Shown: positions 8,500-40,814 of the stretch, in pieces | How positions within the stretch are numbered: the stretch's first letter is position 1 | Layout: each line of letters starts with the position of its first letter | Origin: Bryobacterales bacterium | GTDB lineage: Bacteria; Acidobacteriota; Terriglobia; Bryobacterales; Bryobacteraceae | Reading direction: 5' to 3' | Assembly (NCBI GenBank): GCA_020847315.1 | Contig: JADLCF010000216.1 | Coordinates: 1 to 44,408, forward strand | DNA: 44,408 nucleotides | Notes under the pieces: generated by a model | What the model was told of the DNA's origin: nothing | The model's database searches: none | Seen by the model: the letters and a program-made list of their open reading frames with translations, nothing else | Position numbers and translations under genes: made by a program

Positions 8500-9360
8500 C
8501 TAGTGCGGCAGGCAGTAGGCGTCGACTCTCTTGCGCAGCGCTTCCGCAGACGCGAAGATTTGCGGTGGAACACCCGCCAGGGACGCCTGGGCCGGCGCCT
8601 CGCCGCCCACTTCAAACACCGGCTGAAACCCGGCCAGGTGAGCCACGCGGTTCGCCGCAGCCACGTTTGCCAGGAGGCTCCGCTCCTCCTCGGGGAACGG
8701 CTCATGATGCCGCAGGCAAACCTCCCGCAGATTTGCCGGTAGCTGCCAGACCAACATCATCGCCGCCCCGGCCGCGCAATGGTCGATCTCAAAGAACTGG
8801 CTCTCCAGAATGCGCATATCCACCTGACGGTCGAAGGATTCCTCGATCAGCGCGGTATACTTGCGCGGGAAGGCGCTCATCAGAGCGATTCGCCCAACAT
8901 CGTGGAGCAGGCCCGCCGTATAAGCAAGGCCCGAATCGGTGTTGTAGTGGATCGATAGATCCGCGCTGAGGTGCGCCGTCGCCAGGCAGTGCTTCCAGCA
9001 ATCCACCAGTCTGGGCTCCCGGAATGCGTGGCGGAATTCCCGAGAGAGAGCGATCGCCAGCACGAGCCCCTTCACCCGCTCCACTCCCACAATCGAAACC
9101 GCGTGCCGGATGTCTTCCACCTCGAAGGGCAAGCCAAGCATGGAGGAATTTGCCGCTTTCAGCACCTCCCAGCTAAACGAGGGGTCGCTCTCAATCACCT
9201 CGGCGAATTCCGAATAGCTCGCATTCGGGTCATTCAACAACTGCAACAGCCGCGATGCCACGGCGGGGAATGCCGGCAAGTGCCGCAGGGCCCAATGGCG
9301 TCGTGGCAGCCCTGCGATTGCAGTTCGCGTGGCGCCGGTCTCGAGTTCGCTCGCCTTCAT
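8500..9360 (-). CDS. HDOD-domain signalling protein
   Basis: An HDOD protein of about 286 residues. The domain starts with RHLPAFPAVASRLLQLLND, continues through IESDPSFSWEVLKAANSS and AVSIVGVERVKGLVLA, and includes GLLHDVGRIALM, EIDHCAAGA and a late RHHEP. HDOD domains are relatives of HD hydrolases found in two-component and second-messenger regulation; they often lack phosphodiesterase activity. No other output domain is attached. I chose the ATG at 9360; a GTG at 9393 in the same frame would add 11 residues. It is clearly paralogous to the protein at 39924-40814 along most of its length. It is convergent with the ClC gene, with 15 bases between the ends. Confidence 0.85.
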   Translation of the reverse strand: MKASELETGATRTAIAGLPRRHWALRHLPAFPAVASRLLQLLNDPNASYSEFAEVIESDPSFSWEVLKAANSSMLGLPFEVEDIRHAVSIVGVERVKGLVLAIALSREFRHAFREPRLVDCWKHCLATAHLSADLSIHYNTDSGLAYTAGLLHDVGRIALMSAFPRKYTALIEESFDRQVDMRILESQFFEIDHCAAGAAMMLVWQLPANLREVCLRHHEPFPEEERSLLANVAAANRVAHLAGFQPVFEVGGEAPAQASLAGVPPQIFASAEALRKRVDAYCLPH

Positions 9361-9439
9361 GGCACGGGTTTCCCCTGTCCTGGGAGTCACCACACCCTTA
9401 TCGGCGAATTCGTTCGAATCTAGAGCTTCGCTATTTTTT

Positions 9440-30670: not shown

Positions 30671-30834
30671 CCCTATCCCTAGATGATAGACGCAATTGGA
30701 TGGATTCGGGTAGCTCAAATTAAAATCGCTCGCCCAAGGGAACCGTCCGGAGCCAGCCGGAAACTCCGTCAACAATCCATTTTGCGTGAGAATTTTCCCT
30801 GCGCCGGGCTACTTATTCTTTGGGAGGAGTCCGC

Positions 30835-33246
30835 ATGCGGTTCCCAGTTTGCTTCTGGAAGTATGTGCTTACGGTAGCCCTAATATCGACGTTGGTGGCG
30901 CCGGCGCGCGCTGCCGCTTCCGATCCCGGTTCCAATGTCACTCAATTGTTGGACGAAGCGCCACTCAAGGGAATCCGCTACACGCTGCCGGATGCTTCCT
31001 GGCCCAACACGCTCCCACCCTTGTGCGCTCTGGCTCGCGATCTGCCCTTGTTGAAAGCAAGCGGCGGAACGGCGGTCTTCACCGTGGGCGCTCCTCCCCA
31101 GGAAGGCGATCACATCTTTCTGAGCCTGCTCGCCTCCACGCAACTCTCCTGGGTGGCCACCTATCCCCTGCCACAGGACGTGGACCCTGCGCGCTCCCTG
31201 CTTGAACAGCGGGACGCCCTCCTCGTCCGGTTCACCGCATTCGCCACCCGCTTCCAAGGCAACCCGAGCCTGCGCGGTGTCGTGCTCGATTTCGGCAGTC
31301 AGCATGCCATCGAATCCGCCCTGCTCGCGCCCGCGCTTGCTGCGATTCTTACCGCTCATTTCCCGGAGAATCCCCCGATGCTGGGGCACGCCGCCTATAC
31401 GCCGGAATCGCTCTATAACGCGCCCGCGGGCATCGACTTTTGGCTCTACCGCTTCACCGGAAGCGCGCCCAGCGACCTCGACCGCACATTGCTCTCCCAG
31501 CGCGCGGGGATCCCGGTGGTCTTTGACCTGAGCGGCGTCGCCGCCCAGTTCGTCTCAAGCGCGCCGGGAAGCTGGCGGAGCTTTCTGACGGCCTTCACCG
31601 CGGGTGCGCCGCAGACCCATCTGATTGCCGCCAACCTCATCGGAGCCCGCGAGTCGGGGTCCTCCGTGACAGCCTCCGGCGATGGCGGCGGCGATACAAC
31701 CACGACCGTGATCCGCTACCGCGAGGATGCGCTCTTTCGCGCTGAACGGGACAGCAACAGCTTTGAAAACCTCCGGCCCACCCGATTCCAGGAGGCGCTT
31801 TCCTCCTGGTGGGACGCACCTCCCGTGGCCGATGACCCGGTAGCCCCTGCGTTGAGCGCGGTCTTGAATGCCGCCACCGGTACGGCGTATCTCTCCCCCG
31901 GCGCCCGGGGCGTCCTACGCGGCACGTTCCTAGGTGGCAAGTGGAATGCCCCCTCGGCCCCAGAGTGGCCGCTTCACGCTGGCCCGAACTGCCTCTGCGT
32001 GGCGGATCGGCCCGTTGCCATGGGCAGCCAGACGGAAGCGGAAGCCGCCGCCCAATTGCCCTGGCTCCTCCCCACGGGCCTCATCCGCGCGCGCTTTGTC
32101 CGCGAAGGCGTCGCCTCCGCGCCGTATGTGTTGGAGATGCTTGAAGCCTCGCCCGGTATCTTCCCGCTGCAAATTGAACGCAGCGAATCGGGCTGCCGCA
32201 TGGACGAATCCGATGGCGTGCGTCCCGGCGAGATCCTCGAATTGAATGTCACCGGCGCGGGGCCGCTCAATGGCGACTTCACGGGAATCTCCGTCCTCTT
32301 GAACGATACCCCGGTCGAAGTGCTGAGCGGGGGGCTATCGTCAGAATCAATCGGAATCACCAGCCTTCGCGTGAAGCTGCCCCCGGCGGTCAAGCAGACG
32401 GAACGCAAGGGGCTCTTTCTCCGCAAAGGCGAGCGCGCCAGCAATCTCATTCCCATGGACTTCGTGGGAAATGCCCGGCCCACCGTCTCGCTTGTGGCCG
32501 AGCGCCCCCGAGTTCTGCTGCAGCCGGGCGGCCTGAGCGCTCCCTTGCGGATCGACACGCGCGGACAGAACGGATTCTGCGGCCGCATTGAGTTCAGCGT
32601 GGAAGGCTTACCCAAGGGCGTCACCGCGCTCATCTCGAAAGTGGACGCGGGCAAACCGGCCACGCTGCAACTGAAGGCGGACTCTATGACGGAAGCTGCC
32701 GAGGCCCGCCCCTTCTATCTCTACGCGCTCCCAACGCCGGGCGATTTGGCGACGCTCGCGCTCGAACTGCGCGTGATGCCGCAAGTGGGGGCGATGGCCG
32801 TGAAGCTCGAATCACGAGGGTTCGCCGCCGGAGCCTCCGCCTCTATCTCCTGGAACGGGGAACTCCTGCCGCCCACCGGACCCAAGGCGGCCCGGGGGCT
32901 CTATCTCCAGGTGATTGACCCGCGCACCGGCATCTTCCTCCCCATCGAACGCTACGATCTCTGGGAGAGCAGGGAAGAAAGCACCCGGATGGAAGTGCGC
33001 CTCAACACGCTGCGCGCCGGCGTCATTGTGGGGATGGCCGTGGCCGATGAAGCCACCCTGCACATGCAGCCCTCCCTAAAGAACTGGATCCGGACGAAGC
33101 TCGGCAGCGCCGCCATCGCCACGCTTGGCTACCAGCATTCCTGGGCCATTCTCGCGAAGGTGGGCGGAACGGCGCCGCTCGCGGAAAGTGCAAGCGAATC
33201 CGGGCCTGCGGTGGCCGAAGCCACCTTCTCGCTGCCGGAGCAATGA
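30835..33246 (+). CDS. Large secreted protein with a TIGR03437-like (Solibacter-type) domain
   Basis: An 803-residue protein with a signal peptide (YVLTVALISTLVAPARAAAS) and GGGAGGAG-like ribosome binding site five bases before ATG 30835. Residues about 30-330 form an unknown domain with alternating helices and strands (VVLDFGSQHAIESALLAP, GIDFWLYRFTGSAPSD), possibly a TIM-barrel-like fold. Around 340-550 is a region like the Solibacter uncharacterised domain (AVLNAATGTAYLSPGARG, RGTFLGG, APYVLEMLEASPGIFPLQ, GVRPGEILELNVTGAGPLNG). The rest is beta-rich, Ig-like. Proteins with this domain are abundant in Solibacter-type acidobacteria and thought to be extracellular; the activity is unknown. 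It is divergent from the efflux operon. Confidence 0.75.
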   Translation: MRFPVCFWKYVLTVALISTLVAPARAAASDPGSNVTQLLDEAPLKGIRYTLPDASWPNTLPPLCALARDLPLLKASGGTAVFTVGAPPQEGDHIFLSLLASTQLSWVATYPLPQDVDPARSLLEQRDALLVRFTAFATRFQGNPSLRGVVLDFGSQHAIESALLAPALAAILTAHFPENPPMLGHAAYTPESLYNAPAGIDFWLYRFTGSAPSDLDRTLLSQRAGIPVVFDLSGVAAQFVSSAPGSWRSFLTAFTAGAPQTHLIAANLIGARESGSSVTASGDGGGDTTTTVIRYREDALFRAERDSNSFENLRPTRFQEALSSWWDAPPVADDPVAPALSAVLNAATGTAYLSPGARGVLRGTFLGGKWNAPSAPEWPLHAGPNCLCVADRPVAMGSQTEAEAAAQLPWLLPTGLIRARFVREGVASAPYVLEMLEASPGIFPLQIERSESGCRMDESDGVRPGEILELNVTGAGPLNGDFTGISVLLNDTPVEVLSGGLSSESIGITSLRVKLPPAVKQTERKGLFLRKGERASNLIPMDFVGNARPTVSLVAERPRVLLQPGGLSAPLRIDTRGQNGFCGRIEFSVEGLPKGVTALISKVDAGKPATLQLKADSMTEAAEARPFYLYALPTPGDLATLALELRVMPQVGAMAVKLESRGFAAGASASISWNGELLPPTGPKAARGLYLQVIDPRTGIFLPIERYDLWESREESTRMEVRLNTLRAGVIVGMAVADEATLHMQPSLKNWIRTKLGSAAIATLGYQHSWAILAKVGGTAPLAESASESGPAVAEATFSLPEQ

Positions 33247-35518: not shown

Positions 35519-36529
35519 ATGCGGCGTGCGCTGATTACGGGAGTCACCGGACAAGACGGCAGCTATCTGGCCGAGCTCCTGCTCGCGAAGGGCTATGAGG
35601 TGCATGGCATCAAGCGGCGCTCTTCCACCTTCAACACAGAGCGCGTGGACCCGATTTATGAAGATCCTCACGAGCAGCCGAACTTCTATCTGCACTTCGC
35701 GGACCTGAGCGATGCCAGCAGCCTCTGGAAACTGCTCTACGATATTCATCCGGATGAAGTGTACAACCTTGCCGCGCAGAGCCACGTGCGGGTGAGTTTC
35801 GATATCCCCGAGTACACGGCCGACATCACGGCAACGGGGGCTCTCCGGCTGCTCGAAGCCATGCGCAGTACGGGAGTGAAGGCCCGCTTCTATCAGGCCA
35901 GTTCGAGCGAGATGTTCGGCGCAACCGCTCCTCCCCAGAACGAATCCGCCGTCTTTCACCCCCGCAGCCCGTACGCCTGCGCGAAGCTCTTTGCGCACTC
36001 CATTACGGTGAACTACCGCGAGGGCTATGGGATGCATGCTTCGAGCGGCATCCTTTTCAACCACGAATCTCCCCGGCGCGGGGAAACCTTCGTCACCCGC
36101 AAGATTGCCCGCGCCGCGGCGCAGATTGCGCGCGGCCTACAGGATAAGCTCTTTCTCGGCAACCTCGATGCCAAACGCGATTGGGGCTACGCGCCTGAGT
36201 ACGTTGAGGCGATGTGGCTGATGATGCAGCGGGAGGAACCCGGTGACTTTGTCATTGGCACGGGGGAAACGCACTCCGTCCGGGAGTTCGTGGAGGAGTG
36301 TTTCGCCCTGGTGAATCGGGATTGGCGGGATCATGTCGTCATCGATCCGCGCTATTTCCGGCCTTCCGAGGTAGATGCGCTGCAGGCAGACGCCTCGAAA
36401 GCGCACCGTATTCTCGGGTGGGAACCACGCACGTCCTTCCGGGATCTCGTTCGGATCATGGTGGATGCGGAGCGGGAGGCCCTCGATCGGCGCGCCTCCG
36501 GCGTGCTTCCCCACACAGTCTGCCTGTGA
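35519..36529 (+). CDS. gmd: GDP-mannose 4,6-dehydratase
   Basis: A 336-residue short-chain dehydrogenase of the extended type. [19 protein letters not shown] is the NAD(P)-binding GxxGxx[58 protein letters not shown] and the catalytic Y152-x3-K156 in [11 protein letters not shown] follow, then [20 protein letters not shown], diagnostic for GMD. It converts GDP-mannose to GDP-4-keto-6-deoxymannose, the precursor of GDP-fucose, GDP-rhamnose and related sugars in the cytoplasm. It is slightly shorter than the usual 340-370 residues. ATG 35519 is set by GGGAGGGA upstream; the frame is open far upstream inside the preceding gene. It may supply the polysaccharide locus 13 kb away. Confidence 0.93.
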
Positions 36530-36896
36530 TAGCCGTTCAAGTCTGGCGCGATGCTACCGGGAGGGTCCGCGCGGCGATGCGAAGCGCAACGGTAGCCGGT
36601 ACGACCTCGGCGCGAAGGGCTTCCGTCCCCCTCGAGGCGAGGAAATCTTCCAATTTGCACCGCATAGTACTACGGAACGGAAGTGATTGTGTCACAATCA
36701 CTTCGGACGTAACAGTAAACCAAAGGCCTATCGGTTTTCCTGGAAAGTGGCATGGCTTTCTTTTATCTTCGCCTACCTTTCCCCGGCCTACATAGGCAAA
36801 GTGGAATTGTCGCCAGCCAGATCGCGATCACGGCGCCGCCTCCGTCGGAAGTCTTTCCAAACCGGATGCGGCCAACAACAAACGAGTGGGGTCGGA
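36530..36896. other. Intergenic region upstream of the GTPase gene
   Basis: A 367-base stretch without a supportable gene. It contains the 25-bp palindrome at 36680-36704 (listed separately) and is followed by a less GC-rich part (about 36710-36800). It presumably holds the promoter of the GTPase/Roadblock pair; no confident -35/-10 boxes were recognised. The same-strand open frame that crosses it (from 36687) encodes nothing familiar before the GTPase start. Confidence 0.5.
36680..36704. promoter_or_regulatory. 25-bp perfect palindrome, operator-like
   Basis: Left arm GAAGTGATTGTG (36680-36691), centre T, right arm CACAATCACTTC (36693-36704): a perfect 12+1+12 inverted repeat. It lies about 190 bases upstream of the GTPase start. 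Such perfect, A/T-containing dyads in a GC-rich genome are typical binding sites for dimeric regulators of the TetR/GntR/CRP kinds. The bound protein is unknown. The arms could also form a stem in RNA, but the single-base loop makes that less likely. Confidence 0.6.
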
Positions 36897-37451
36897 ATGC
36901 AAGATTACATCGCGAAAATTCTCGTCGCCGGTCCGGTTGGTTCCGGAAAGTCGACCTTCGTCCGCACGTTATCCGATACGCCGTATGTCGATACGGATGT
37001 CCTCGCCAGTGAGGATATCGGCAAGATGGGTACCACCGTCGGTATCGATTTCGGCACGATGGATGTGGACGATGTGCGGATCTTGCTTTTCGGCGTTCCC
37101 GGTCAGGAGCGATTTGACTTCCTATGGGAGGTCACCTGCAACGGCGCGCATGCTCTGGTTCTTCTCGTAGCGGCGGACCGCCCCGCTTGCTTCATCGAAG
37201 CCAAGAAGACATTAAAGTTTCTACAGAAATTTATCGAAGTACCAACCGTCGTGGGACTGACACGGACAGACCTAGGTGAAGATTGGCCGCCCGAAGAGGT
37301 CGGAAGTTATCTCGGAGTTCCTTCGGATTGCATTGTAAATGTGGATGCTAGGAGCCGTGAGAGCGCGATGGAGACATTGCGAGTGCTCTTCGAGTACGTG
37401 GCTCCAAAGTCGAGTTCATTGAGAACGGAAGGATCACTTAGCCTCGTTTAG
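36897..37451 (+). CDS. MglA/COG2229-type small GTPase
   Basis: A 184-residue Ras-like GTPase. Walker A is GPVGSGKST (G12-T20, K18), a switch-I-like KMGTTVGIDFG follows (T46/T47), the switch-II motif is FGVPGQERF (66-73; the usual DxxG aspartate is Gly, as commonly seen in the COG2229 group) and the G4 motif is TRTD (122-125, variant of NKxD). The C-terminus has SRESAMETLRVLFEYV. These GTPases act in polarity and signalling with Roadblock-domain partners that serve as GAPs; such a partner is encoded 15 bases downstream. ATG 36897 was chosen because the fold begins there, after GTCGGA. Confidence 0.87.
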   Translation: MQDYIAKILVAGPVGSGKSTFVRTLSDTPYVDTDVLASEDIGKMGTTVGIDFGTMDVDDVRILLFGVPGQERFDFLWEVTCNGAHALVLLVAADRPACFIEAKKTLKFLQKFIEVPTVVGLTRTDLGEDWPPEEVGSYLGVPSDCIVNVDARSRESAMETLRVLFEYVAPKSSSLRTEGSLSLV

Positions 37452-37466
37452 GAGTACAATTCTGCC

Positions 37467-38027
37467 ATGGACCAGCAAACCTTGAGACAAATCGAAATCC
37501 CTTTGGAGGAACTCGCAGCCTCCACGCGTGGCATTCGTGGCTGTTTGCTGGCCACGGCGGACGGCGTTGCCGTGATGCATCGCAATCTGAACGACCAGGC
37601 CGAGGCGCTGGCCGCGCTTAGTGCGTCCTCCCTAGGCATCGGTCGGAGGGTGGCGGAGGTGGGCGGTTGCGGCGCGCTCCAGGAGGTCTGCTTCAAAGGC
37701 TTCGAAGGCTGGGTAAGCGTGGTCGCCGTGGGCAATCGAGCGGTGCTCGCCGCGGTGGCGCACGAGGGCTGCAGCATTGGGATGGTGATGTACTATTCCC
37801 GCAAGTATGCCGATGAGATTCTGGGGATCATCGATCCGGAGCAGGCCCGCGCGCTCGAAGAACGGGAAGATCTTCGGGATGAAGAAGATCAGGTGAGCAT
37901 GCGCAGCGCGCTGCAAGCCTTGGCGTCGCTCGACGAGTACAACACGCCTCCCGCGGACGATGACGACCCGCTTTATCGTGAGGCGGATAAATACCGTTCG
38001 ATGCAGGAAACCGTGCGCGAAGGTTAA
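37467..38027 (+). CDS. Roadblock/LC7-domain protein (MglB-like GTPase partner)
   Basis: A 186-residue protein. Residues 1-115 form a Roadblock/LC7 domain: QIEIPLEELAASTRGIRGCL, LATADGVAVMHRNL, AALSASSLGIGRRVAEVGG, GFEGWVSVVAVGNRAVLAAV, then MVMYYSRKYADEILGII. The tail (about 125-186) is strongly acidic and helical, ending DDDDPLYREADKYRS. Roadblock dimers bind and regulate small GTPases of the MglA type, so it probably works on the product of the gene 15 bases upstream. In MglA/MglB systems this controls motility or polarity; the actual pathway here is unknown. Confidence 0.87.
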   Translation: MDQQTLRQIEIPLEELAASTRGIRGCLLATADGVAVMHRNLNDQAEALAALSASSLGIGRRVAEVGGCGALQEVCFKGFEGWVSVVAVGNRAVLAAVAHEGCSIGMVMYYSRKYADEILGIIDPEQARALEEREDLRDEEDQVSMRSALQALASLDEYNTPPADDDDPLYREADKYRSMQETVREG

Positions 38028-39923: not shown

Positions 39924-40814
39924 ATGACAAACCGGCAAGAAACAGGCATGAATGAACGCATGGAGAAGTTGAACTCGATTCCCAAGTACCCGTGGGCGCT
40001 GCGGCAACTGCCACCGTTTCCGCCGGTAGCCAACCGTCTCCTCGGTCTGCTGCAAGACCAGAATGTCTCCAATGCGCAGCTTTCCGAAGTCATCCGCATC
40101 GATCCCACGTTCTCCTTTGAGCTGTTGCGCCTGGCCAATTCCTCGCTGTTCGGTTTCGCGCAGCAGGTGAGCGACATTGGCCACGCGATCTCGATTGTGG
40201 GTCTTGAGCGGGTGAAGGCGCTGGTGATGATGGTGGCGCTGAACGCGCAGATCAAGTCCGCGCTCCGCTACCAGAGGCTCCTCGACTGCTGGATCCATTG
40301 CCTCGCTTGCGCGGTGCTTACCGAATCGGTGGCGCACGGCTGCGGCATTCCCGCGGAGCGGGCCTACATGGCGGGGTTGCTGCACGATGTGGGCCGGCTC
40401 GGCATGATGACGGCATACCCGCAGGAGTACGCGCGTCTGCTCGATGTCGCCACGGAAGAAGGTTTGCCGCTCATTCAGGCCGAGCTCGATGTCTTCGATA
40501 TCGATCACTGCATGGCTGGAGCATGGCTGGCCGCGGAATGGAACCTGCCTCCGGAAGTTCGCTTCGTCGCCCAGACGCATCATGAACCGCCTGAGACGGG
40601 AGACCGGGAACTGGGAAATCTCCTACGGATCACCAACCGGCTCACGAATCTCATCGGTTTCTCCGTGATGCCGGAGCCCGACATCTACTCGTTCGAAGAT
40701 CTTGTGGACATGCTTCCACAGCCCGCCCGCCGCCGCATTGAACCGAACCAGAGCGCCCTAAAGCAGGAGATCCTGGAGAAAGTCTCCGTTTTCGCTGCTC
40801 CTAGAGCCGCCTGA
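39924..40814 (+). CDS. HDOD-domain signalling protein (paralogue of 8500-9360)
   Basis: A 296-residue single-domain HDOD protein: LRQLPPFPPVANRLLGLLQD, IRIDPTFSFELLRLANSS, AISIVGLERVKALVMMVAL, LLDCWIHCLACAVL, GLLHDVGRLGMM, DIDHCMAGAW and TQTHHEP-like (AQTHHEP). It keeps an HD pair and several HD-type histidines. HDOD proteins act in chemotaxis-, motility- or stress-related signalling; no partner is visible next to it. It and the minus-strand protein at 8500-9360 share nearly every motif and clearly arose by duplication. Other in-frame ATGs at 39948 and 39960 are possible starts; the conserved part begins after them. Confidence 0.87.
   Translation: MTNRQETGMNERMEKLNSIPKYPWALRQLPPFPPVANRLLGLLQDQNVSNAQLSEVIRIDPTFSFELLRLANSSLFGFAQQVSDIGHAISIVGLERVKALVMMVALNAQIKSALRYQRLLDCWIHCLACAVLTESVAHGCGIPAERAYMAGLLHDVGRLGMMTAYPQEYARLLDVATEEGLPLIQAELDVFDIDHCMAGAWLAAEWNLPPEVRFVAQTHHEPPETGDRELGNLLRITNRLTNLIGFSVMPEPDIYSFEDLVDMLPQPARRRIEPNQSALKQEILEKVSVFAAPRAA

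Follow-up and report, generated by a model that had tools for sequence, protein, structure and literature searches.

A single-copy palindrome conserved in three sister species is a candidate operator of a small GTPase/Roadblock gene pair in Bryobacterales

In a window of 44,408 nucleotides, the whole stretch of DNA that was analyzed, a perfect 25-bp palindrome lies upstream of a small GTPase gene and its Roadblock/LC7 partner. We consider it probable (roughly 0.7) that this palindrome is a lineage-restricted DNA operator, at which a dimeric, sequence-specific regulator encoded elsewhere would act on the GTPase/Roadblock promoter. We observed that the site is symmetric, that its half-sites are selectively conserved with exact spacing, and that it occurs as a single copy at this promoter only. 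Five genomes of the genus were compared, namely that of the window (own, G000) and the congeners G004, G002, G003 and G001, whose GTPase is 98, 91, 74 and 73% identical to the own protein, respectively. The site and the genes around it are the following:

36680–36704, no strand assigned: 25-bp perfect dyad (12+1+12) with its axis at 36692, candidate operator
36681–36688, no strand assigned: left conserved half-site AAGTGATT, 8/8 in G004 and 8/8 in G002
36696–36703, no strand assigned: right conserved half-site AATCACTT, 8/8 in G004 and 8/8 in G002
35555–36529, plus strand: GDP-mannose 4,6-dehydratase-like gene (part matched, start not fixed), upstream of the dyad
36897–37451, plus strand: small GTPase gene, 184 aa, with Pfam ATP_bind_1, Arf and Ras matches, putative target
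37467–38027, plus strand: Roadblock/LC7 protein gene, 186 aa, with a Robl_LC7 match, GTPase partner

The dyad, GAAGTGATTGTG-T-CACAATCACTTC, occupies exactly 36680–36704, as an earlier sequence-only reading had described it. That reading was equally accurate in calling the surroundings GC-rich (62% GC in the 44-kb window as against 40% in the site, or 10/25 bases counted by eye) and in placing the dyad about 190 bases before the GTPase gene, the gap between the end of the dyad and the likely start at 36897 being 192 bases. On the other side, 150 bp separate the dyad from the stop of the dehydratase-like gene. The window contains no longer perfect dyad, and the next two have 9-bp arms. Among 200 windows simulated with a first-order Markov model, arms of at least 12 bases with a loop of 0–1 base arose in 4 and with a loop of 0–7 bases in 10, so that the dyad by itself is just mildly improbable. 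Symmetry taken alone is little proof, and the convincing, stronger evidence is the conservation across species.

Half-sites and 7-bp spacing are retained in two of the four orthologous promoters of the same genus. The arms AAGTGATT-N7-AATCACTT are identical at 16/16 positions in G004 and G002 with the N7 spacing exact, G004 carrying a 23-bp perfect dyad of the same sequence as the own site and G002 the version AAGTGATT-CTTGTAT-AATCACTT. Since the block boundaries were set after the alignment had been viewed, the arms being limited to the 8+8 bases that G002 retains (it does not retain the 12-base own arms in full), the following contrasts between blocks are descriptive. Between own and G002, 2/7 bases of the center (36689–36695) are identical, and the flanks of the arms are near random (2/8 and 2/11). 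Overall, 217/367 positions are identical, and 56/134 in the 5′ portion of the intergenic DNA; the remaining stretches comprise gaps with 2/12 and 3/9 identical bases and a rest with 48/79. By our own arithmetic, the chance of 16/16 identical arm positions is ∼2 × 10^–4 at the overall rate and ∼9 × 10^–7 at the rate of the 5′ part. Fully identical 8-N7-8 frames were found at 15 of 344 placements, one being the dyad and the other 14 overlapping one another in a single downstream block. Not one indel separates the two sequences from ∼36630 to ∼36876, whereas several occur nearer the dehydratase gene, which ties the dyad to the GTPase promoter.

The site is limited to three of the five species examined, of which two are closely related (98% GTPase identity), and a search allowing up to 2 mismatches did not find it in the corresponding G001 and G003 promoters. 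It was recovered in three separate assemblies, each time away from contig ends, and an assembly artifact is therefore not likely. At –214 to –199 upstream of the GTPase gene of G001 (L042), near the corresponding place, there is a shorter, different dyad with 6-bp arms, CTTGTTTACAACAAG, which may be a diverged operator or due to chance.

The simulated windows with as long a dyad, and the perfect pairing through the center in own and G004 but not in G002, would also fit a palindrome that arose by chance, or a quasi-palindrome perfected by template switching, that has no function in the promoter. However, both arms are selectively conserved at exact spacing in otherwise randomized DNA, and we regard this explanation as very unlikely.

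With pairs numbered from the axis outward, own, G004, and G002 are identical at pairs 2 and 4–11. G002 lacks pairs 1 and 3 and is alone in forming pair 13, and pairs 12 and 14 are formed in both own and G002 by different bases, G004 having A-C and T-G there. The nine paired positions kept in the three species show no base change at all, which points to recognition of the sequence beyond pairing alone. Because pairs 1, 3, and 12–14 vary between species, the recognized core is probably 8-7-8 and not the full 25 bp, an anatomy that would suit a protein reading two 8-bp half-sites.

A weaker rival to the operator is a hairpin of RNA (or single-stranded DNA), which would lie either within an extended GTPase mRNA leader or in the trailing part of the dehydratase mRNA and might, for instance, serve in processing or stability. 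The fold is predicted to be stable (z = –4.1 in own and –4.5 in G002), and an 11-bp stem is available in both, with loops of 3 and 7 nt. Moreover, both bases of pairs 12 and 14 in G002 differ from those of own with pairing retained, and these two outer pair changes are the sole hint of pairing as such. At such divergence, however, a hairpin stem should tolerate compensatory changes, and the core shows none, its nine pairs being kept while adjacent bases are randomized, which favors recognition of the sequence. The outer pairs do not form in G004, whose fold is only weakly stable (z = –1.5). The 241-nt leader as a whole does not exceed its shuffles in stability (z = –0.59), neither strand has a T run after the dyad, and no Rfam match was obtained. 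In addition, a possible core-promoter block downstream of the dyad would leave the dyad outside the GTPase transcript. Taken together, we judge the hairpin to be unlikely.

Intrinsic terminators (GC-rich stem and T run) numbered 0 in 36500–36920 and in its G002 counterpart on both strands. Likewise, known structured RNAs or riboswitches were rejected as candidates, with 0 Rfam matches at gathering score in the window and the four orthologous stretches; the best weak hit (E = 1.5) did not overlap the dyad, and no known RNA of the Rfam type was found near a paralogous GTPase gene considered below.

Under the operator reading, a dimeric transcription factor would bind the two 8-bp half-sites (AAGTGATT and AATCACTT) 7 bp apart. 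The regulator would be encoded elsewhere and be dedicated to the GTPase promoter, and the expression of the GTPase/Roadblock pair would probably be tuned via the site, by repression or by distal activation. Binding by a protein, the regulator, the position of the transcription start, and the direction of the effect are what we infer from the sequence. As expected of an operator, the site has a symmetric pair of half-sites whose spacing is fixed and which are under selection (16/16 arm positions, N7, three species). Further sites of a regulon, which are usual but not required, were not found.

A genome-wide search for more copies and their targets, which the sequence-only reading had proposed, yielded none in the own genome (assembly 87% complete) for either the 25-mer or the 23-mer with up to 3 mismatches, and the operator idea is thus left without regulon support. 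Across 237 genomes of the family, the exact arms occur in 3, at one place each and always in the GTPase promoter. When up to 2 mismatches are allowed, four further places appear among the five congeners (two in own, one in G003, and one in G001), none of them in an orthologous promoter. These look like chance matches, a rough estimate being one per genome, and at least two lie in likely coding sequence (L062 and L063). The place in G003 (L060) is ∼50 bp before a lipoprotein-like gene. The earlier proposal of a site for a dimeric regulator, which had been staked on conservation in orthologous promoters and on further copies, therefore stands in part: half-sites and spacing are kept in 2/4 promoters with their neighbors randomized in G002, but the 73–74% identical orthologues are without the site within 2 mismatches, and the own genome has no second copy at up to 3 mismatches.

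Palindromes are frequent in REP- or MITE-like, phage, or plasmid elements, and the dyad could in principle be a remnant of a repeat or mobile element or a site derived from a phage or plasmid. However, it occurs just once in the own genome and once in every one of the 3/237 family genomes that bear the arms, no plasmid or phage match was obtained, and it is vertically conserved at one place. Together, these observations make this origin extremely improbable.

About five sharply conserved blocks, the dyad among them, precede the GTPase/Roadblock pair with their spacing fixed, and the operator would thus form part of a compact region of about five conserved modules. Three of these blocks are dyads. 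The other blocks are the following:

36664–36672, no strand assigned: box ATAGTACTA, which includes the 8-bp palindrome TAGTACTA, 9/9 between own and G002
36716–36737, no strand assigned: block TAAACCAAAGGCCTATCGGTTT, 21/22 between own and G002, with the imperfect dyad AAACC-N11-GGTTT
36750–36788, plus strand: block with TTATCTTCGCCTA (the TTCGCCTA block, which holds the 14 overlapping frames), 37/39 between own and G002 and kept in 5/5 congeners, possible core promoter
36798–36817, plus strand: block AAAGTGGAATTGTCGCCAGC (AAAGTGG block), 19/20 between own and G002, its core AAAGTGGA in 5/5 congeners

The imperfect dyad at 36716–36737, TAAACCAAAGGCCTAYCGGTTT, lies ∼35 bp downstream of the palindrome axis. 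In G002 (L040), a dyad with 9-bp arms, CTTTCCCCGGCAATCTCGGGGAAAG, was noted downstream of the TTCGCCTA block at –119 to –94 from the GTPase start; it is absent from the own sequence. A scan of the GTPase upstream region for promoters of the sigma-70 type found none.

G002 and G004 also possess a paralogous GTPase gene whose product is ∼40% identical to the GTPase. Upstream elements common to the paralogue and the GTPase promoter are AGTACTA, CCTATSGGTT, and the bipartite GTACTS-N13-TTAYCTTCGCC, and the AGTAC core of the 36664–36672 box also occurs in G001, in G003, and in two paralogous GTPase promoters. Elements shared by orthologues and paralogues were located at 36664–36817 of the window, at ∼4500–4800 of L057, and at ∼4450–4750 of L058. 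The bipartite element is exact in the G002 paralogue and the G003 orthologue, has one mismatch in the G002 orthologue, and has three in the own and G004 orthologues, being degenerate in the own genome. When the five congeners were scanned for it with up to 3 mismatches, the totals were near those of a reversed-pattern control; at least two matches were exact, and the two among the matches listed lie in GTPase promoters. No long dyad occurs in either paralogue promoter. The shared AGTACTA box and bipartite element suggest a common control of the two GTPase switches.

The GTPase gene adjoins a Robl_LC7 gene in 5/5 congeners, as in an MglA/MglB-like pair, and G004 and G002 retain the genes for dehydratase, GTPase, Roadblock, fumarase, and HDOD protein in this order. 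In G001 and G003, GTPase and Roadblock genes are found together, with no dehydratase match in the stretches covered, one contig being 4.3 kb long and the other ending just behind the Roadblock gene. A GTPase search of 61 genomes (own and 60 relatives) gave some match in 46 and a close orthologue only in the five of the genus. A scan of a collection of 84,980 species returned the same four relatives (Bryobacterales or Acidobacteria MAGs) and, in addition, ten remote relatives with 34–45% identity. No relative was found in viral contigs, and among solved structures only remote Arf/Rab matches were obtained. A frame is open from 36687, but the GTPase is unlikely to extend N-terminally across the dyad because the open frames of the congeners differ in length and a one-base gap precedes the start between own and G002. 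None of the 25 window proteins compared with Pfam, a selection of the window ORFs without, for instance, those at ∼24–30 kb, matched a DNA-binding family, which is consistent with the earlier claim that the regulator is not encoded nearby. The window also encodes two HDOD-domain proteins (8503–9393 on the minus strand and 39924–40814 on the plus strand) and an 808-aa protein at 30820–33246 with a C-terminal ILEI domain match (PF15711), here in a bacterium.

Dimeric regulators bind dyads such as the 11-1-11 operators of the NsrR/Rrf2 type or those of the Zur type. Like these operators, the dyad is an inverted repeat of ∼23–25 bp that has a central base and precedes a gene, and its half-sites are conserved while its center is variable. 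It differs from them in that its sequence fits none that we can name, that it is a single copy, and that no regulator gene was found beside it, and the likeness to Rrf2/NsrR- or Fur/Zur-type sites is one of geometry only. A site of the CRP/FNR type, with the consensus TGTGA-N6-TCACA and an even axis, was rejected, as the dyad has an odd axis with a central base and by inspection lacks this motif. Literature searches with the half-palindrome and with both arms gave no relevant bacterial operator among the matches listed, and none of the listed papers concerned the GTPase promoter. A table of Fur sites appears in an excerpt of PMC545781. According to passages of PMC4316618 (Wuichet and Sogaard-Andersen 2014), the genes for MglA-family small GTPases in most cases lie close to a Roadblock (MglB) gene, and the actinobacterial version of GTPase-Roadblock systems is the conservon. 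The locus at 36897–38027 resembles both in that a Ras-like small GTPase gene adjoins a Roadblock/LC7 gene. Unlike in conservons, no gene for a histidine kinase (CvnA) or for CvnC was found among the window proteins scanned, and the neighbors are instead a dehydratase, a fumarase-like gene, and an HDOD protein.

As judged from the sequence comparisons, the site is real, selected, single-copy, and operator-like, and the kind of feature is an ordinary one. A tentative extension, which we hold to be possible but doubtful, is that a group of sister species within the genus gained a single-target operator together with a dedicated regulator, as a new input to a multi-module control region of the GTPase/Roadblock pair and with co-control of the paralogous switch. 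Through the elements shared with the paralogous GTPase gene, one novel, dedicated factor might then govern both switches. Bacterial Ras-like GTPase/Roadblock switches have been studied mostly at the protein level, and the compact conserved control region provides a handle, in the form of a 23-bp bait, on the control of such a switch in uncultured Acidobacteriota.
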